A DNA stretch of 64,000 nucleotides, taken from Candidatus Onthovicinus excrementipullorum (GTDB lineage Bacteria > Bacillota > Clostridia > Oscillospirales > Acutalibacteraceae). The notes under the pieces are model-generated. The model had not been told where the DNA came from, made no database searches, and saw nothing but the letters and a program-made list of their open reading frames with translations. Positions 5,776 to 53,216 of this stretch are shown here, piece by piece (position 1 is the first letter of the stretch; every line of letters starts with the position of its first letter). The stretch is taken from positions 46,035-110,034 of the forward strand of contig DVHG01000003.1 in assembly GCA_018712345.1 (NCBI GenBank). Direction: 5' to 3'. The translations under genes and the position numbers were made by a program.

Positions 5776-7504
5776 TTGAATCGCCCCCTTTCACCTGTGA
5801 AGCATAGATTTCCTGGTAAATATGATTGTTCCGCAGCAATTCCTCATGCGTACCGACCGCGTTGATTTTTCCATCATCCAGAATGATGATCTGGTCCGTA
5901 TTCATCACAGAGGTGATGCGCTGGGCGATGATGATTTTTGTCATATCCGGTAATTCAGCCAGTGCTGTGCGGATCTTTGCCTCCGTGGCTGTATCCACGG
6001 CGCTGGTCGAATCGTCAAAGATCAGGATTTTCGGTTTTTTCAGCAGCGTCCGCGCAATGCAGAGCCGCTGCTTTTGCCCGCCGGAGACGTTGACACCGCC
6101 CTGTCCAAGGTCCGTATCAAGCCCTTTGGGCATCCGCTCGATAAACTCGTCCGCACAGGCGATCCGGCACGCGCGCCAAAGCTCCTTGTCATCCGCTTCC
6201 CGGTTCCCCCAGCGGAGATTGTCGCGGATCGTACCGGAGAAGAGAACATTTTTTTGCAGTACAATCCCGACTGCGTCGCGCAGGGCGGTCAGATCATAAT
6301 CCTTTACATTTTTTCCGCCCACGTCCACCTCGCCGGTCGTTGCGTCATACAGCCTTGGTATCAGCTGGACCAGCGTTGTCTTGGCGGATCCGGTTCCGCC
6401 CAGGATGCCGACTGTCTGCCCTGCCTGGATATGCAGACTCACGTTTGAGAGCGCATACTCCTCTGCGTCGCGGTGATATTTGAAGGAGACATTTTTAAAG
6501 TCAATGCTTCCGTCCGGTATTACCGTTTCCGCGGCGGCAGGGGAGGTGATCTCCGGCTTTTCATCGAGCACCTCACCGATCCGCTTGGCGCTTGCGAGTG
6601 AGCGCGTCAGCAGCAGGAATACATTGGAGATCATCATCAGGGAGTTCATCACCTGCAATACGTAGCTCAGAAATCCTGTCAGATCGCCCACCTGAAGCGT
6701 ACTGTTAATGATCATGTTCCCGCCGAACCACATAATCAGCACCACCGCCGTATACATTACAATTTGAAACGCGGGCAGATTGAGCACGGCGTAGTGGAAC
6801 GTCTTCTGGCTGGTCTGCATCAGATCTTCGTTGACGCTTTTAAACTTTTCCTCCTCATATTCGCCCCGGACGAAGGCTTTGACGGCACGGATTGCAGTCA
6901 GCCCCTCCTGGACCACACCATTGAGCCGATCGACGGCCCGCTGTAAGCGGGAGTACATCGGCGCAACCCTGTGCACAATAAATACGAGCGTCACGGCCAG
7001 GAGCGGCGCACTGACGAAAAACACAAGCGAGAGCTTAGCGTTCATCCAGATGGAGAGCGCGATCCCGAGGATCAGCATTGCCGGACCGCGCACCAGCGGC
7101 CGGATCCCGCCGTTGATGGCGTTTTGCACAACGGTGATATCGGTTGTCAAGCGTGTCACCAGTGATGAGGTATCAAATCGGTCCAGATTGGAAAAGGCGT
7201 AGGTCTGAATTTTTTCATATTCGGCCTCGCGGACACGCGCGCCAAATCCATACGATGCCCGCGCGGCAAAGCGCGCGTAGAGCAGTCCGGTAATCAGAGA
7301 CAAAACGGCGCAGATTCCCATTTCAATCCCCCGAATATAAATAATGCGGGTATCATGATTAACAACACCAATATCAATAATATCTGCCATCAAAAGGGGG
7401 ATAATCAGTTCAAAACAGGTTTCAAAGATTACAAGTATGGCTCCCAAGTAGAAATCCTTTTTGTAAGGCCCCACATAGCTGAATAGTTGCTTAAGCTCTT
7501 TCAC
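5753..7504 (-). CDS. ABC exporter half-transporter, degenerate-site subunit
   Basis: The 583-residue half-transporter has an N-terminal six-span domain and a C-terminal ATPase domain. Walker A is GGTGSAKTT and the signature is VSGGQKQR. Walker B reads ILIFDDSTSAVD, so the catalytic Glu is Asp, and the H-loop reads IAQRITS with Gln in place of His. These are the known marks of the non-catalytic site in heterodimeric exporters. GTG at 7504 is chosen because AAGGAGG lies 8 bases upstream; the longer TTG start lies inside the MarR gene. It follows the MarR stop by 4 bases and overlaps the next subunit, giving a marR-abc-abc operon. Confidence 0.92.
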   Translation of the reverse strand: MKELKQLFSYVGPYKKDFYLGAILVIFETCFELIIPLLMADIIDIGVVNHDTRIIYIRGIEMGICAVLSLITGLLYARFAARASYGFGARVREAEYEKIQTYAFSNLDRFDTSSLVTRLTTDITVVQNAINGGIRPLVRGPAMLILGIALSIWMNAKLSLVFFVSAPLLAVTLVFIVHRVAPMYSRLQRAVDRLNGVVQEGLTAIRAVKAFVRGEYEEEKFKSVNEDLMQTSQKTFHYAVLNLPAFQIVMYTAVVLIMWFGGNMIINSTLQVGDLTGFLSYVLQVMNSLMMISNVFLLLTRSLASAKRIGEVLDEKPEITSPAAAETVIPDGSIDFKNVSFKYHRDAEEYALSNVSLHIQAGQTVGILGGTGSAKTTLVQLIPRLYDATTGEVDVGGKNVKDYDLTALRDAVGIVLQKNVLFSGTIRDNLRWGNREADDKELWRACRIACADEFIERMPKGLDTDLGQGGVNVSGGQKQRLCIARTLLKKPKILIFDDSTSAVDTATEAKIRTALAELPDMTKIIIAQRITSVMNTDQIIILDDGKINAVGTHEELLRNNHIYQEIYASQVKGGDSNGTSNER

Positions 7505-17070: not shown

Positions 17071-17099
17071 TTGAAAATCACCGGATAACATGGTATAAT
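17071..17099 (+). promoter_or_regulatory. Sigma-A promoter of scfA
   Basis: TTGAAA at 17071-17076, 17-base spacer, TATAAT at 17094-17099; leader about 50 bases. Confidence 0.82.
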
Positions 17100-17156
17100 A
17101 GCCTCACAGAACAAAACCAAATCAAATATTTGGATGATTTTCGGAGGTAAGAGAAT

Positions 17157-17294
17157 ATGAAACATATCAAAACACTTAACAAGGCCAGCCTGAAACAGTC
17201 TGCTGCCAAGGGCGGCTGCGGCGAGTGCCAGGCATCCTGCCAGTCCGCCTGCAAGACTTCCTGCACGGTTGCAAACCAGAAGTGCGAGAAATAA
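17157..17294 (+). CDS. scfA: SCIFF ranthipeptide precursor
   Basis: The gene encodes exactly 45 residues with six cysteines (21, 24, 28, 32, 36, 43), which is the definition of SCIFF (six cysteines in forty-five). The leader starts MKHIKTLNKASLKQSAAKGG and the core is GCGECQASCQSACKTSC followed by TVANQKCEK. In studied SCIFF peptides a radical SAM enzyme joins cysteine sulfur to a nearby residue (threonine in the characterised case), forming a thioether outside the alpha carbon (ranthipeptide); here Thr34 and Thr37 lie near the cysteines. GGAGG precedes the ATG by about 10 bases. Its own promoter lies upstream and the maturase gene downstream. Biological roles proposed elsewhere include quorum sensing. 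Confidence 0.96.
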   Translation: MKHIKTLNKASLKQSAAKGGCGECQASCQSACKTSCTVANQKCEK

Positions 17295-22775: not shown

Positions 22776-22970
22776 AAAGGCGCTTTTCCCTGCTAAGTGC
22801 GACCATTGCAGCTTTTATAACCCAACACACTTTAAATCGGAAGCTGATCTCCGTTTCTGGTCTGCAGACCTCCCGATCACAGATCGGACGAAGGGAGCGT
22901 AAAGGAAGCGGGAGGCATCCACCTGCTTTTACCTGCAGGTTATCATCAGCTGCAAACCGGCTCGGCGGGG

Positions 22971-24575
22971 TTATTGCGCGATATCGGCGGACTGTACCGG
23001 CATATCGGTGCGGCCTGCTTTTTTTCTGCCCGTAATCAGGCGCATTCCCCAGCGTAAATCGTCGGTAGTAACGCTGTGGGTCGCAATCAGCAGGAGCAGA
23101 TATGCCGCCAGAAACACAGCGCCCAGGACTACCGTCCATAGCCGGCCAGAGAGGACGGTAAGCTGCCTCAGACCGACGACGACCGCACCGGACAGCATCA
23201 CGGACAGCAGCGGGAACAGGACCCACCGGCGCAGCTCAAAGCGGAGTTTTACAACCTTAATCAGACGGTTCAGACTCATCGCGCCATTGAGGATCTCGCT
23301 GAGAAAGATCGTAGCAATATATCCCTTGAGTCCCGTGTGGGGAAGCACAAACCACACCATCATTACACTGACACAGGCATCTATGATATTATACTTCATG
23401 GAGCTCATTTGTTCATTAAGTCCCTTGAGCATGCTGTCAACAGCGGTGTCCACATACATGATCGGTATCAGCGGAGCAAACAGCCTCAGGTAAAATGGAA
23501 TGTTGGCATTATTGGAGACAAAGGCGGCGATTTCCTCGGAGAAAAAGAACATGGCCCCCGCCGCGCCGATCGAGAAGATGTAGGCAACCTGAAACATCCG
23601 ATTAACCATATAGTGGATGTGCCGGTCCTTCTCTACACTCCCCCCGCCGATTCTGGAGTGGCTCTCCGTAAGTTCCGGAATAATCAGACTGCAAAACGCG
23701 GAGAGGAACACACTCGGGAACAGAACGGCCGGCAGCACGACACCGTGCACGGTGCCGAATACGGCATGCGCATTTTCCTGTGTCATTCCGTTTTTTTTCA
23801 GCCGCCCCGGGACAAGCAGATTTTTCAGCGTCAGCAGGCCGGAACGCAGGTAGGAGCTCAGCGCAATTGGCAGCCCGATATAAAACATCCGCTTTGTCAG
23901 CGTGGGATCCTTTACCGTTGCGGTCGGTACAAGGCGTCGACGGTCCATCTGATAGAGCACATAAGATCCGATGCAGGCAAGAAACTCCGAAACAGCGGTG
24001 GCCCCGATCATGACCAGACACGTCCCCTCCAGATCATCCTGGGACACCAGCGCCGTCAGCCCCAGGACTGTCAGCACAATCTTGATCCCCTGATCAGATA
24101 TCTGCACAGCGGAATTTTTTGCGACACGCCGCACGGCCGTAAAATATCCGCCGAGCGCACAGGATACGGAAGTAAAGGGCAGGCTGAGCGCGGCCAGACG
24201 TAGCGGACGCACTGTGAGCGGCTCATTAATCCAATAAGTTCCGATTACGCCACCCAGCAGGAAGAGCGCAGCCGCAGCCGCCACACCGAAGCAGAGCCCG
24301 TAAAGTATGCACTTGTGCATGGCATCCGGTACACTGTCACGTTTATCCCCGCCGATCTCCTCTGCCACCAGCCGCGTGGCTGTCAGGTTGATCCCGGAAG
24401 TCGCCACCGTAACTGCCAGAGAATATACGGACAGAATGAGCTGAAAAACCCCCATCGCCGCCACGCCGATCCTGTTGGATATGAACAGATTGAACCAGAC
24501 GCCGACCGCACTGATGACAAGGGAGGTCGCTGTCATAATTACCGCATTCATCAGGAAACGTCCCGCGTTATTCAT
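22971..24575 (-). CDS. SpoVB-like polysaccharide flippase (MATE/MVF superfamily)
   Basis: The 534-residue protein has about 14 hydrophobic segments. It belongs to the oligosaccharide/lipid flippase superfamily that includes SpoVB and MurJ; the N-terminus FLMNAVIMTATSLVISAVGVWF and the motif GVFQLILSVYSLAVTVATSGI are typical of SpoVB relatives. Such proteins move lipid-linked precursors across the membrane; SpoVB is needed for the spore cortex. Multiple SpoVB paralogs are common in Clostridia, so the sporulation role is inferred. GGAAGG lies upstream of the ATG. It stands alone, divergent from the NagD-like gene. Confidence 0.85.
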   Translation of the reverse strand: MNNAGRFLMNAVIMTATSLVISAVGVWFNLFISNRIGVAAMGVFQLILSVYSLAVTVATSGINLTATRLVAEEIGGDKRDSVPDAMHKCILYGLCFGVAAAAALFLLGGVIGTYWINEPLTVRPLRLAALSLPFTSVSCALGGYFTAVRRVAKNSAVQISDQGIKIVLTVLGLTALVSQDDLEGTCLVMIGATAVSEFLACIGSYVLYQMDRRRLVPTATVKDPTLTKRMFYIGLPIALSSYLRSGLLTLKNLLVPGRLKKNGMTQENAHAVFGTVHGVVLPAVLFPSVFLSAFCSLIIPELTESHSRIGGGSVEKDRHIHYMVNRMFQVAYIFSIGAAGAMFFFSEEIAAFVSNNANIPFYLRLFAPLIPIMYVDTAVDSMLKGLNEQMSSMKYNIIDACVSVMMVWFVLPHTGLKGYIATIFLSEILNGAMSLNRLIKVVKLRFELRRWVLFPLLSVMLSGAVVVGLRQLTVLSGRLWTVVLGAVFLAAYLLLLIATHSVTTDDLRWGMRLITGRKKAGRTDMPVQSADIAQ

Positions 24576-50363: not shown

Positions 50364-52700
50364 TTATTCTATTTCTTCTGCGTAATACACGCGTGAATCG
50401 TTATCGAGCAACAGCCGGCAATTGAGATTGAAGCCGTTTGAAGCATAGAGCTGCTTTGGCTTAAAGCCGGAATACATCAGTGAAGCGCCGGAGAGATCAT
50501 AGACATCCTTTTCCGTGTTAAAGCGGACAAATTTATCCATGACAAAGTCGTAGAGCTTACTCGTCTCCGTGTCCACGGGCAGGACCATACCGACAAGCGG
50601 ATCGAACTGGCGCAGGTTGAGGGACTGTGTGCGCTTCTCCATGTGATAGCGCTTTTCGGGAGCCAATCCAGTAAAACGAATATTATCGTACTTATAATTC
50701 GGCTTGATTCTATCCGTAAACATTCCGAGCATCGCCTGCTTCTGATCCGCCGACACCACAACCCAGTAGGAAAGATCATCTGTAAAGGCGTCACCGATGC
50801 GATAAAAATCACCGAACTGAAGCAGCCTGCGGTGCTTTTTGTAATACTCGATCTGCTTTTTGACTGCCGATTTTTCATAGGAACTGAGCTTGGTCACATC
50901 CAATTCGTAGCCGAGCAAGCCAAAGGAGGCCACATTGAACCGTTGCTCAATGGAGGATGGGCGCAGATCGGCAAAGCTTGGCGAATCGCTGACATGCATG
51001 CACATCACCGACTGCGGATAGCCATAGGATGTTCCGGTCTGGATGCGCAGACGATCGAGTGCGTCTGTGTTGTCGCTCGTCCAGCACTGCGGCATGTAGC
51101 AGAACATGCCCAGATCAAAGCGGTTGCCGCCGCTGGAGCAGGACTCAAACAGAATGGACGGGAACCGCGTGACAAGGGCATCCAGAATTTCGTAAAGCCC
51201 CAGCACATAGCGGTGGAAGAACTCCCCCTGGTGTGCGCCGGCAGCGTGAGAAAACACATCCGAGAACTGGCGGTTCATATCCCATTTTACGTACTCCACA
51301 TTGCCGCTCTTAAGCACGTCGGTCAGCGCATTGATCAGATAATTGCGCACATCCTCACGCGTGAGATCAATCACAAGCTGGTTGCGCCCCTGTGAGGGCG
51401 TATACCGGTCCACTGTAACGGCCCAGTCCGGATGTGCCCGATAGAGGTCGCTGTCAATGGAGATCATCTCCGGCTCAAACCACAGGCCGAATTTTAATCC
51501 CATATCATTAATCTTTTTGGCGATGCCGCCGATCCCGCTGGGCAGCTTTTTCTTGTTGACGTACCAATCGCCCAGGGAGGAACGGTCACTGTTCCGCTTA
51601 CCGAACCAGCCGTCGTCCAGAACAAACATCTCCGCTCCGAGCTCCTTGCCCGCCTTGGCGATGTTCAGGATCTTTTTCTCCGTAAAGTTGAAGAAGGTCG
51701 CCTCCCAGTTGTTTACGAGTACCGGACGCTCCTTATATTTCCACTCGCCGCGGACGATGTGCTCTTTAACAAAGCGGTGCATGTTCCGGCTCATGCCGTT
51801 GAGTCCCTGGTCACTGAACGTCATGACGGATTCCGGCGCGTCAAAGATATCGCCCTCCTGCATCGACCACTCAAATTCAAACGGGTTGATCCCGTTTTGG
51901 ATGCGGATCAGGTCATGCGTGCCGGTCTCCACCCGGGCAATATGATTGCCGGAGTAAATCAGATTGAATGCATAGCAGCTACCGGCCTCCTGGGTGCAGT
52001 CATCCCGCCGAACAATAAAAAACGGATTGTGTCGGTTGGAGCTTGCCCCGCCGATAGATCCCATAGAGATAACGCCCTGATTGATTTTTTTCTCATGCAG
52101 ATAGCGCTCGCGCATCCACGCGCCGTCAAACGTCATCATCGTATACTCGTCAAACGGCAGATCCAGCTGCATGCTCATCAGGGAGTGCATTTTGAACGGC
52201 GTCTCTCCACAGATCAGGCGGGCAGAGCGCGTGATAACATCGCACTCCTCAAAAACCGTATATATCAGATGGAGCTGTGCACCGATGGACGCATCCTCCA
52301 GCACCAGTGTCAGCGTCTGGGAGGGGCCGTAGCTGGACGGCAGTCCCCTGAGCTCCGGCTTTACATCGGTAATCCCATGGCTGGTATATTTAAAATCGGA
52401 TGTAAACACACCGTCCGGCGTGCTGATCTGTACGGCCGGGAGACGATAATCCCCCTTGCCATAGGAGGAGTAGTCCAGGCAGATATGATCCAGAGACAGC
52501 TTCGTATCCTCCTGGGAGTACGCAGTGGAGTTGCCGTAACCGAGATCGTGCTTGTCATACAGGAATTCGAAGCTCTCTTCTGCCGGGATTCGTGTCCCGT
52601 AGTAAAGATTTTCGATATACCCGTTCTCCAGAACACGAATAATATAGGACGTGTTCTGCGTGGCCAGATAGAACTCTTTCTTTTCCGTTGATTGAATCAT
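50364..52700 (-). CDS. Alpha-galactosidase, GH36
   Basis: The 778-residue cytoplasmic enzyme hydrolyses alpha-galactosides such as melibiose or raffinose. It shows the large N-terminal beta domain, the barrel with FVLDDGWFGKRN and LKFGLWFEPEMIS, the nucleophile Asp474 in YVKWDMNR, CSSGGNRFDLGMF, and the acid/base Asp543 in CWTSDNTDA. ATG at 52700 has only GGGGGT upstream; the longer frame would run through a structured leader and is rejected. A sigma-A promoter about 220 bases upstream drives it through this leader, with GH2 as the second gene. Confidence 0.94.
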   Translation of the reverse strand: MIQSTEKKEFYLATQNTSYIIRVLENGYIENLYYGTRIPAEESFEFLYDKHDLGYGNSTAYSQEDTKLSLDHICLDYSSYGKGDYRLPAVQISTPDGVFTSDFKYTSHGITDVKPELRGLPSSYGPSQTLTLVLEDASIGAQLHLIYTVFEECDVITRSARLICGETPFKMHSLMSMQLDLPFDEYTMMTFDGAWMRERYLHEKKINQGVISMGSIGGASSNRHNPFFIVRRDDCTQEAGSCYAFNLIYSGNHIARVETGTHDLIRIQNGINPFEFEWSMQEGDIFDAPESVMTFSDQGLNGMSRNMHRFVKEHIVRGEWKYKERPVLVNNWEATFFNFTEKKILNIAKAGKELGAEMFVLDDGWFGKRNSDRSSLGDWYVNKKKLPSGIGGIAKKINDMGLKFGLWFEPEMISIDSDLYRAHPDWAVTVDRYTPSQGRNQLVIDLTREDVRNYLINALTDVLKSGNVEYVKWDMNRQFSDVFSHAAGAHQGEFFHRYVLGLYEILDALVTRFPSILFESCSSGGNRFDLGMFCYMPQCWTSDNTDALDRLRIQTGTSYGYPQSVMCMHVSDSPSFADLRPSSIEQRFNVASFGLLGYELDVTKLSSYEKSAVKKQIEYYKKHRRLLQFGDFYRIGDAFTDDLSYWVVVSADQKQAMLGMFTDRIKPNYKYDNIRFTGLAPEKRYHMEKRTQSLNLRQFDPLVGMVLPVDTETSKLYDFVMDKFVRFNTEKDVYDLSGASLMYSGFKPKQLYASNGFNLNCRLLLDNDSRVYYAEEIE

Positions 52701-52743
52701 TGCAGTACCCCCGCTGAAAAAATAGAAGTGGTTTTGCGCCGTG

Positions 52744-52798
52744 TCCTCCGGAAGATTCCAAATCTCTGATTTGGTTCTGTTCCGTGAGGTTATTATAC
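52744..52798. repeat. Leader repeat B (55 nt)
   Basis: This copy matches repeat A at 52874-52929 over 55-56 bases, with the last 20 (GTTCCGTGAGGTTATTATAC) identical. On the minus strand it has TATAAT followed by a hairpin CCAAATC-AGA-GATTTGG. No -35 box precedes the TATAAT here, so it is a non-functional promoter copy. Confidence 0.85.
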
Positions 52799-52801
52799 TG
52801 C

Positions 52802-52861
52802 GGATCAGGCGCTTCCAGCGCCCCGCCGAGAGGCGGGAGAGGGCGCAAGCCCTGCTGATCC
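52802..52861. ncRNA. Four-way-junction structured element in the GH36 leader
   Basis: A closing stem (52802-52808 with 52855-52861) encloses three perfect hairpins: 52809-52813/52817-52821 (loop TCC), 52822-52827/52832-52837 (loop GAGA) and 52840-52844/52849-52853 (loop GCAA). Only three bases of the junction are unpaired. The two GNRA tetraloops occur on the plus strand, while the GH36 message is minus. It is not a tRNA. A regulatory RNA or a mobile repeat element are both possible. Confidence 0.6.
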
Positions 52862-52873
52862 TGCAATACAATG

Positions 52874-52929
52874 TTCTCCGGAACACCCAAAATCTTCGAT
52901 TTTGTTGGTGTTCCGTGAGGTTATTATAC
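52874..52929. repeat. Leader repeat A (56 nt), contains the promoter -10 box
   Basis: On the minus strand it reads TATAATAACCTCACGGAAC, then a stem of about 15 bp (GGAACACC and CAAAATC pairing with GATTTTG and GGTGTTCC) closed by GAA. It would form the 5' end of the GH36 mRNA. Compare repeat B at 52744-52798. Confidence 0.85.
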
Positions 52930-52951
52930 CATTTAGCCAAAGTTGGGTCAA
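52923..52951 (-). promoter_or_regulatory. Sigma-A promoter of GH36-GH2
   Basis: On the minus strand TTGACC (52951-52946), 17-base spacer, TATAAT (52928-52923). The predicted leader is about 216 bases. Confidence 0.8.
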
Positions 52952-53087
52952 TTTCCTGTTTTCTCCACAGCGAATTTTTCCCGCCAAATATGGTCCAAAA
53001 TTTTTATATTTCTTGAACAGTTTTCCCATTGCAGCTGAATTGGTTTCTTCACTTTCATAAATCGGCCGCAAAAAAATAAAAAAGTAC

Positions 53088-53115
53088 TTGATTTTTTCCC
53101 TGAAAGTGATATAAT
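53088..53115 (+). promoter_or_regulatory. Promoter of the initiator tRNA
   Basis: TTGATT at 53088-53093, 16-base spacer, TATAAT at 53110-53115, 24 bases before the tRNA. Confidence 0.75.
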
Positions 53116-53139
53116 AGTTAAGCACTCAAAATGATATAT

Positions 53140-53216
<77 letters not shown>

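Follow-up and report, generated by a model that had tools for sequence, protein, structure and literature searches.

A hairpin-rich, probably mobile repeat family that lies directly behind promoter -10 boxes in Candidatus Onthovicinus and its relatives

Why should a gene for an alpha-galactosidase be preceded by two copies of one hairpin with a four-way junction between them? The question is raised by the DNA upstream of a GH36 gene in Candidatus Onthovicinus excrementipullorum, within a stretch of 64,000 nucleotides of contig DVHG01000003.1 that was analyzed as a whole (the window). A preliminary description, made from the letters alone, had proposed either a new leader regulator or a structured mobile repeat that brought a promoter with it. 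Its account of the architecture was borne out. The array has the same sense as the GH36 gene, so that on the minus strand the order is promoter, A1, B, A2 and GH36 (Table 1), with 38 nt between A2 and the start codon at 52700. The element proper comprises positions 52739-52922, and positions 52923-52951 are the promoter ahead of it. The two A copies are direct repeats 130-131 nt apart, 90% identical over 29 nt and 77% over the 35 nt of the other half; their exact common block ends with GTTCCGTGAGGTTATTATAC on the plus strand, and each holds a TATAAT (minus strand) and a hairpin. The sequence between the copies forms, on either strand, a stem that closes around three hairpins and leaves hardly any junction bases free. 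The fold of the array is strong when compared with shuffled sequence (z = -8.4 for the plus and -10.0 for the minus strand), and none of 200 shuffles was equally stable.

Other details of the first account stand in part. The promoter assigned to the right copy is plausible (TTGACC-17-TGGTATAAT), but it lies outside the element proper; the TATAAT of the left copy lacks both a TG and, as judged by eye, a suitably spaced -35. The two loops described as GNRA (GAGA and GCAA) do exist on the plus strand, but this strand runs opposite to the promoter and the GH36 gene, and the loop sequences differ among 16 aligned B modules, so that GNRA is not a conserved feature. In agreement with the statement that no riboswitch was recognized, no Rfam family matched above its gathering score, the best in the region being lactis-plasmid RNA with 22.4 bits against a threshold of 70 (E 0.2). 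Nearby, an Rfam S774 match at 53075-53159 (+) overlaps a tRNA at 53140-53213 and is probably due to that tRNA.

Table 1. Positions of the array ahead of the GH36 gene and of other features in the window (G001 is the sister species).
Feature	Position	Strand	Remarks
-35 box TTGACC of the putatively resident promoter (target)	52946..52951	-	same TTGACC and 17-nt spacer in the empty G001 site
Extended -10 TGGTATAAT of the putatively resident promoter; the element joins it at the 3' end (left junction)	52923..52931	-	ATGGTATAAT is the same in the G001 site that lacks the array
A1, first repeat unit, AACCTCAC-hairpin-GGAGAACATTG	52869..52922	-	7 of 18 pairs doubly changed in the alignment of A
B spacer, a four-way junction of three hairpins and a closing stem to which the ATTG end of A1 contributes	52792..52868	-	
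Second TATAAT, closes spacer B	52792-52797	-	
A2, second repeat unit	52739..52791	-	3' end diverged (GGAGGACACGG for GGAGAACATTG); no terminal TATAAT after it
GH36 alpha-galactosidase-like gene, 778 aa, downstream of the array	50364..52700	-	PF02065, PF16875, PF16874
Solo degenerate A unit in the SCIFF leader, behind TTGAAA-17-TGGTATAAT	17090..17147 (region 17071-17294)	+	
SCIFF ranthipeptide gene	17157-17294	+	TIGR03973, 84.5 bits
6S RNA	22784-22975	+	RF00013, 62.1 bits

The search of the genome and its relatives that the preliminary description had proposed shows a dispersed family. BLAST with the array gave 15 matches at 11 places of the 2.45-Mb genome; one of them, of 26 nt, is probably a chance match, which leaves 10 sites. 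A pattern for the start of A occurs at 20 places when up to 2 mismatches are allowed, and at 26 with up to 3, compared to 1 for the reversed pattern. The genes behind the arrays are unrelated. GH36 and SCIFF were identified by profiles, and from our reading of the sequence we take others to be NAPRTase-like, DnaD-like and formate-THF-ligase-like genes and a response regulator gene. In its strict form, the A-start pattern has no match upstream of GH36 in the best 80 of 596 relatives, some of these loci having little upstream DNA; the closest relatives among these 80 are 64-67% identical and come from Oscillospiraceae/Ruminococcaceae bins.

The arrays are modular and consist of short structured units, with A alternating with spacers that recur between or after the A units: B (about 74 nt), C (about 72 nt) and D (about 41 nt), as well as a 32-nt type in G009 and E in G004. 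The A units within one array have a single common orientation. A CRISPR array is ruled out, since the spacers fall into a few recurring structured classes and are not unique. At one genomic site, L018 in the own genome (G000:C21) and L167 in the sister species (G001:C27) differ in module order while being 80% identical over 3.9 kb, and modules have apparently been exchanged or duplicated in place. Some arrays are adjoined by a second repeat of the CCCTTGAGGGGAA .. GATGAGGTGG type (right flank of L023, L019 and L166; positions 2613-2681 of the flank query), which has many matches in G038, G039 and G043, genomes of the same order but of different families.

A covariance model of A, built from 31 sequences of G000, G001, G004, G009 and G021, matches 45 of the 300 family genomes searched, counting the own genome, and these belong to 30 of 135 genera. 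Ten or more matches were found in 14 of the 45, where copy numbers from draft genomes are lower bounds and up to 18 matches per genome were scored; four G001 arrays, for instance, reach contig ends (L163, L164, L165 and L168). In an even sample of the phylum, 3 of 398 genomes matched, namely the own genome, one of the same family and, weakly, one distant genome. There was no match to the A family in 50,697 phage and 72,556 plasmid records.

The covariation test that had been suggested came out positive, with compensatory changes in A, B and C. For A, we aligned 31 hand-chosen sequences (30 of the 47 distinct units and one from G021; 17 units, some of them degenerate, were left out) and found 91.4% of the cells paired and 36 double-change cells, compared to 12.3 in shuffles. 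Truncated modules were left out for the two spacers. In B (16 modules from two species), 96.5% of the cells are paired, with 18 double-change cells compared to 5.6 in shuffles, and 6 of 32 pairs are doubly changed, a number equaled by 29 of 500 shuffles. In C (nine modules from four species in three genera), the values are 93.6% and 9 of 30 pairs changed on both sides, compared to 4.6. Further pair types did not exceed the shuffles for B or C, and pairing drops to 26-49% in slid controls. As the shuffles ignore relatedness, we treat these numbers as supporting evidence.

By eye, B, C and E have no similarity, yet they share a common shape, a stem closed around three hairpins, which is the minimum-energy fold for B, for E and for three of four C modules folded singly. 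The closing stem of B and C is formed by ATTG and the following bases, which pair with the next TATAAT with one G.U pair (16 of 16 and 9 of 9 modules); in E the outer part of this stem is open. G.U cells outnumber A.C cells (15:7, 25:13 and 15:10), and this excess would slightly favor the sense strand as the folding strand.

Comparison of occupied with empty sites places the arrays relative to promoters. We set 23 array sites against a related genome, and 14 of them could be read as occupied/empty pairs. In 13 of these 14, from three genera, the junction lies directly 3' of a -10 hexamer that is common to both genomes. The hexamer of the empty site is TATAAT in 12 cases and TATGAT in one, and 11 of the 13 have TG one base before it.

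The own genome and the sister species contribute 11 sites, from the flanks of 7 G000 and 4 G001 arrays (L164 and L165 being two ends of one). Eight are clean pairs, in both directions: the window site, L016, L017 and L023 are occupied in G000, and L164/L165, L166, L169 and L170 in G001. In all eight the flanks align through TGNTATAAT, and the array opens with AACCTC or GACCTC. For the site in the window, the sequence of the sister species runs TTGACC-17-ATGGTATAATACCCTCG and continues with a leader of its own, and the empty counterpart of L016 reads TTGTCC-17-TGATATAAT. We set aside L020 (a similar promoter, TGCTATAAT/TGTTACAAT, with weak alignment of the left flank), L022 (region missing in G001) and L024, which is the SCIFF site (no G001 match). 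Three more arrays are occupied in both species (L018/L167, L019/L163+L168 and L021/L171). For two other genera, 16 flanks were searched, of which 4 (L278, L285, L313 and L322) had no sister match and 12 were compared. The hexamer marks the junction in the empty pairs L309/G306 (GCGGTATAAT), L308/G241 (CTGTTATAAT), L321/G192 (TGGTATGAT), L320/G192 (GCAGTATAAT, with TTTACT 17 nt ahead of the hexamer in both genomes) and L314/G074 (ATGCTATAAT). L305, L273, L312, L306 and L316 are occupied in both genomes, as is L309 when compared with G150, and L323 was not informative. The contrary site is L277 of G074: the G192 flank aligns to within 6 nt of the junction without a -10 hexamer there, and three other relatives, compared likewise, have none either.

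At the other end the picture is more varied. At the right junction of L164/L165 the flank resumes with AATTTTTGC straight after the hexamer position, and L016 and L020 are similar. By manual count, 8 of the 23 array ends that can be read finish with TGNTATAAT, and the other 15 lack a clear one. Because the N of TGN differs between the left and the right end in L020 and L182, the right hexamer looks element-borne. An A unit and its target form an imperfect palindrome, and some arrays end in direct copies of TATAAT, which would fit a target-site duplication as well as an element-borne hexamer.

Since the -35 and the extended -10 already stand in the empty site of the sister species, the promoter at the compared sites appears to be a resident target and not cargo, and the repeat would have come to the promoter. 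The suggestion that the repeat had brought a promoter with it is thereby reversed, while its description as a structured mobile repeat is supported by the dispersed copies before unrelated genes. We infer that the direction was insertion and not precise loss, from comparisons that cover few genomes per genus and no outgroup and leave room for precise loss back to TATAAT.

Counts across carriers point the same way. In G000, G001, G009 and G004, 23 of 27 first A units stand directly behind TGNTATAAT; the exceptions are L165 and L168 (cut by contig ends), L177 (first unit truncated) and L022 (which reads GGGTATAAT), and L165, L168 and L177 were left out of later counts. A further 67 distinct first A units come from 26 carriers outside the model. 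With the loose class TA[TC][AT]A[TC] for -10-like hexamers, 47 of them follow TGN and such a hexamer, 7 follow TATAAT without TG, and 13, among them the subfamily that starts with AATAAGAACC, lack any -10-like start. For the -35 box we used 73 first A units from 22 genomes that had TATAAT or TACAAT and 60 nt upstream. TGN is present in 65 of them and a -35 (at least 4 of 6 matches, 16-18 nt) in 42, whereas 500 shuffles averaged 9.8 and never exceeded 22. Among 1075 background TATAAT sites in the loci examined, 156 have TGN and 203 have a -35. Restricted to TGNTATAAT sites, the comparison is 37 of 64 insertion sites with a -35 versus 56 of 162 in the background (p = 0.0017), a surplus that survival of harmless insertions could have caused.

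How might the hexamer be recognized? Unit A ends with ATTG, a sequence complementary to the final four bases of the left target hexamer. In 92 first A units, positions 1-4 of this candidate guide pair with the target in 91, 90, 88 and 86 cases, and pairing fails beyond them, with 38 of 92 units paired at position 5. The pair at position 1 is T-A in 82, G-C in 5, C-G in 2 and T-G in 2 units, position 3 is A-T in 83 and T-A in 4, and position 4 is T-G in 86; the first guide positions lie inside the search model, which itself favors those letters. Guide and target co-vary by subfamily (AATAAG with CTTG, ATAAC with GTTT, TATTAT with ATAG), and because the changes track subfamilies, independent guide changes are few. 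We regard target choice through ATTG pairing as a lead, not as proof. A precedent is IS608, which is described as picking a tetranucleotide target via base pairing that can be re-programmed (PMC5934647).

We found neither a transposase nor an autonomous copy of the repeat. Of 21 carriers examined, 13 had Y1 transposase matches, some of them weak, as had 11 of 30 other genomes. No Y1 match was found in the remaining 8 of 21 carriers (G004, G009, G074, G131, G150, G164, G241 and G286), and Y1 as a required mover was rejected on this ground; G241, an assembly of 10 contigs with 99% completeness, has 16 A matches. Paired A units in G121 and G184, read with Pfam, contained no gene clearly belonging to the repeat. 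In L334 (G121:C2:701800-708300), two inward-facing A units stand 4 kb apart around amidase genes, with further Pfam matches to a PrsW protease and, at 6060-6416, a phage-integrase fragment. L335 (G184:C80) has A units at 853-909 and 1648-1704 and Pfam matches AAA_25 and Mob_Pre. It belongs to the subfamily that starts with AATAAGAACC and has the guide CTTG (also L271, L272 and L275), and one copy of this subfamily appears to interrupt the AAA_25 gene next to the Mob_Pre gene, and not to stand behind a promoter.

Positions 52739-52922 are an array of a hairpin-rich repeat family, directly behind a resident -10 box. We are fairly confident that this family is mobile but non-autonomous, with -10 boxes as its insertion targets, and that the RNA of the target would start with the first hairpin. 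Dispersal, the modular arrays (A with one of the spacers B to E), presence in one sister species and absence from the other with the hexamer as the junction, the compensatory changes and the upstream enrichment of -35 boxes are established. In the mechanism that we propose, an enzyme supplied in trans would insert the unit 3' of TATAAT, and pairing between the ATTG that closes A and the last bases of TATAAT would assist target choice. After insertion, the -35 and -10 of the resident promoter would be left intact. By the usual spacing, the predicted transcription start lies at the foot of hairpin A, some 7 nt behind TATAAT, and the element would become the 5' end of the target's mRNA and provide it with a structured 5' UTR. 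For GH36 the leader would be about 215 nt long, and the early prediction that this mRNA begins with the structure is still sound. Where an array finishes with TGNTATAAT, this far copy may preserve or create a start site near the gene, or it may serve as the next target, which would explain tandem arrays.

The SCIFF locus of the window holds a solo A unit whose GGAGG occupies the position of the ribosome-binding site. By eye, the SCIFF leaders of 7 other genomes have no A unit. Here the repeat may have turned into a native leader.

Other explanations deserve consideration. A gene-specific regulator in the leader of the galactosidase gene, be it a riboswitch or a protein-binding leader, would suit the strong conserved fold, the position and the promoter upstream, and it was the first of the two options in the preliminary description. 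However, the units precede many unrelated genes of the genome, the strict pattern was missing upstream of the best 80 of 596 GH36 relatives, the sister species has gene and promoter without the array, and Rfam gave no match above threshold; we give this explanation next to no credence. It is also quite improbable that nothing moves, in which case the arrays would have spread and shrunk through recombination of TATAAT-rich repeats alone, with precise deletions as the origin of the empty sites. Direct TATAAT copies at some ends would permit deletion to one hexamer, and array composition does change at shared sites, but copies sit at many unrelated loci in 45 of 300 genomes, and 13 losses, each clean to the hexamer and in both directions between species, would be a less simple account than insertions.

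Two further explanations accept mobility. The arrays may have arrived as mobile elements and then been kept as domesticated leaders, on the assumption that a 5' hairpin A alters the stability or translation of the target mRNA. This is a possibility that we take seriously, while thinking it the less probable outcome. It is consistent with the predicted start at the foot of hairpin A, the compensatory changes that maintain the A fold, the sites occupied in both genomes (3 in the sister species, 5 in two other genera) and the GGAGG in front of SCIFF. Gain or loss between sister species is frequent, however, module make-up changes at shared sites, and a fold needed for mobility would give compensatory changes too. 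Rather unlikely, in our estimate, is a single-strand route like that of IS200/IS605 elements, with a Y1 enzyme that cuts 3' of a TATAAT chosen via the ATTG guide between the hairpins. Insertion 3' of a fixed short target, hairpins close to both ends, guide-target complementarity that co-varies between subfamilies, the IS608 precedent for pairing-based target choice (PMC5934647) and the somewhat higher frequency of Y1 in carriers (13/21 versus 11/30) would fit this route. The 8 carriers without a Y1 match, G241 included, speak against it. So does the use of a single guide for both ends, which differs from the IS608 layout.

The insertion reading has a bolder form, which we consider doubtful, if somewhat less so than the IS200/IS605-like route. 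A class of guide-bearing elements would enter promoters at the melted -10 box, the ATTG pairing with the exposed TATAAT strand in the open complex. The element would land a few bases upstream of the start, the host promoter would transcribe from the first hairpin, and some forms would leave a fresh -10 box at their far end. If this were true, the guide-bearing element would be the promoter counterpart of terminator-homing elements.

Elements aimed at transcription signals exist elsewhere. Class C group II introns settle behind terminators, and yeast Ty3 goes to the start sites of Pol III; the present repeat resembles them in being aimed at such a signal, but its target is the bacterial -10 box, whereas they encode proteins and use reverse transcription. 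No other bacterial repeat family is known to have the -10 box as its target, and the Correia elements of Neisseria insert at TA. Among the titles and abstract openings listed by searches of open PubMed Central papers, none describes a repeat family at -10 boxes. Correia elements are small repeats with promoter-like sequences that affect nearby genes (PMC10969869); they have 26-bp inverted repeats and generate promoters (PMC3049150). One copy is described as sitting directly downstream of the mtrCDE promoter and is the nearest precedent found (PMC10969869). In contrast to Correia elements, the promoter of the present repeat pre-exists at the compared sites, 13 of the 14 readable empty counterparts having the hexamer, and an element-borne second hexamer occurs at some far ends.

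The BOX elements of Streptococcus, which are grouped with RUP and SPRITE, are described as short modular repeats (boxA-boxB-boxC) with structured transcripts and are regarded as mobile and non-autonomous; terminal inverted repeats and target-site duplications are features of both BOX and RUP, and BOX is overrepresented between convergent genes (PMC3049150). The present repeat is likewise small, modular and structured, a likeness by description in a different host family, and unlike BOX it has the -10 box as its target. REP/BIME sequences, too, are palindromic, composite and dispersed, and they may be moved by a Y1 enzyme, RAYT (PMC8266576, PMC2817692). BIME units are listed in the literature as alternating in orientation, whereas the present A units share one, and unlike REP/RAYT and IS200/IS605 the present family needs no Y1 gene in the genome, judging by the 8 of 21 carriers. 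With IS608 it has in common a short fixed target and complementary element DNA (PMC5934647); in contrast to IS608, the element carries no transposase, and the complementarity spans four bases and lies between two hairpin sets.

Small structured repeats are common in bacteria, but their landing sites, and the reasons for them, have rarely been worked out. In this family, comparison of occupied with empty sites fixes the junction to the base, and the place is the core promoter. The pairs are natural experiments, in which one promoter and gene occur with and without a structured leader. If insertion is confirmed, the family would supply many genes of gut Oscillospiraceae-like bacteria with ready-made structured 5' UTRs, leaders would change between sister species, and the repeat would be a natural example of an element that recognizes a transcription signal, perhaps via base pairing.
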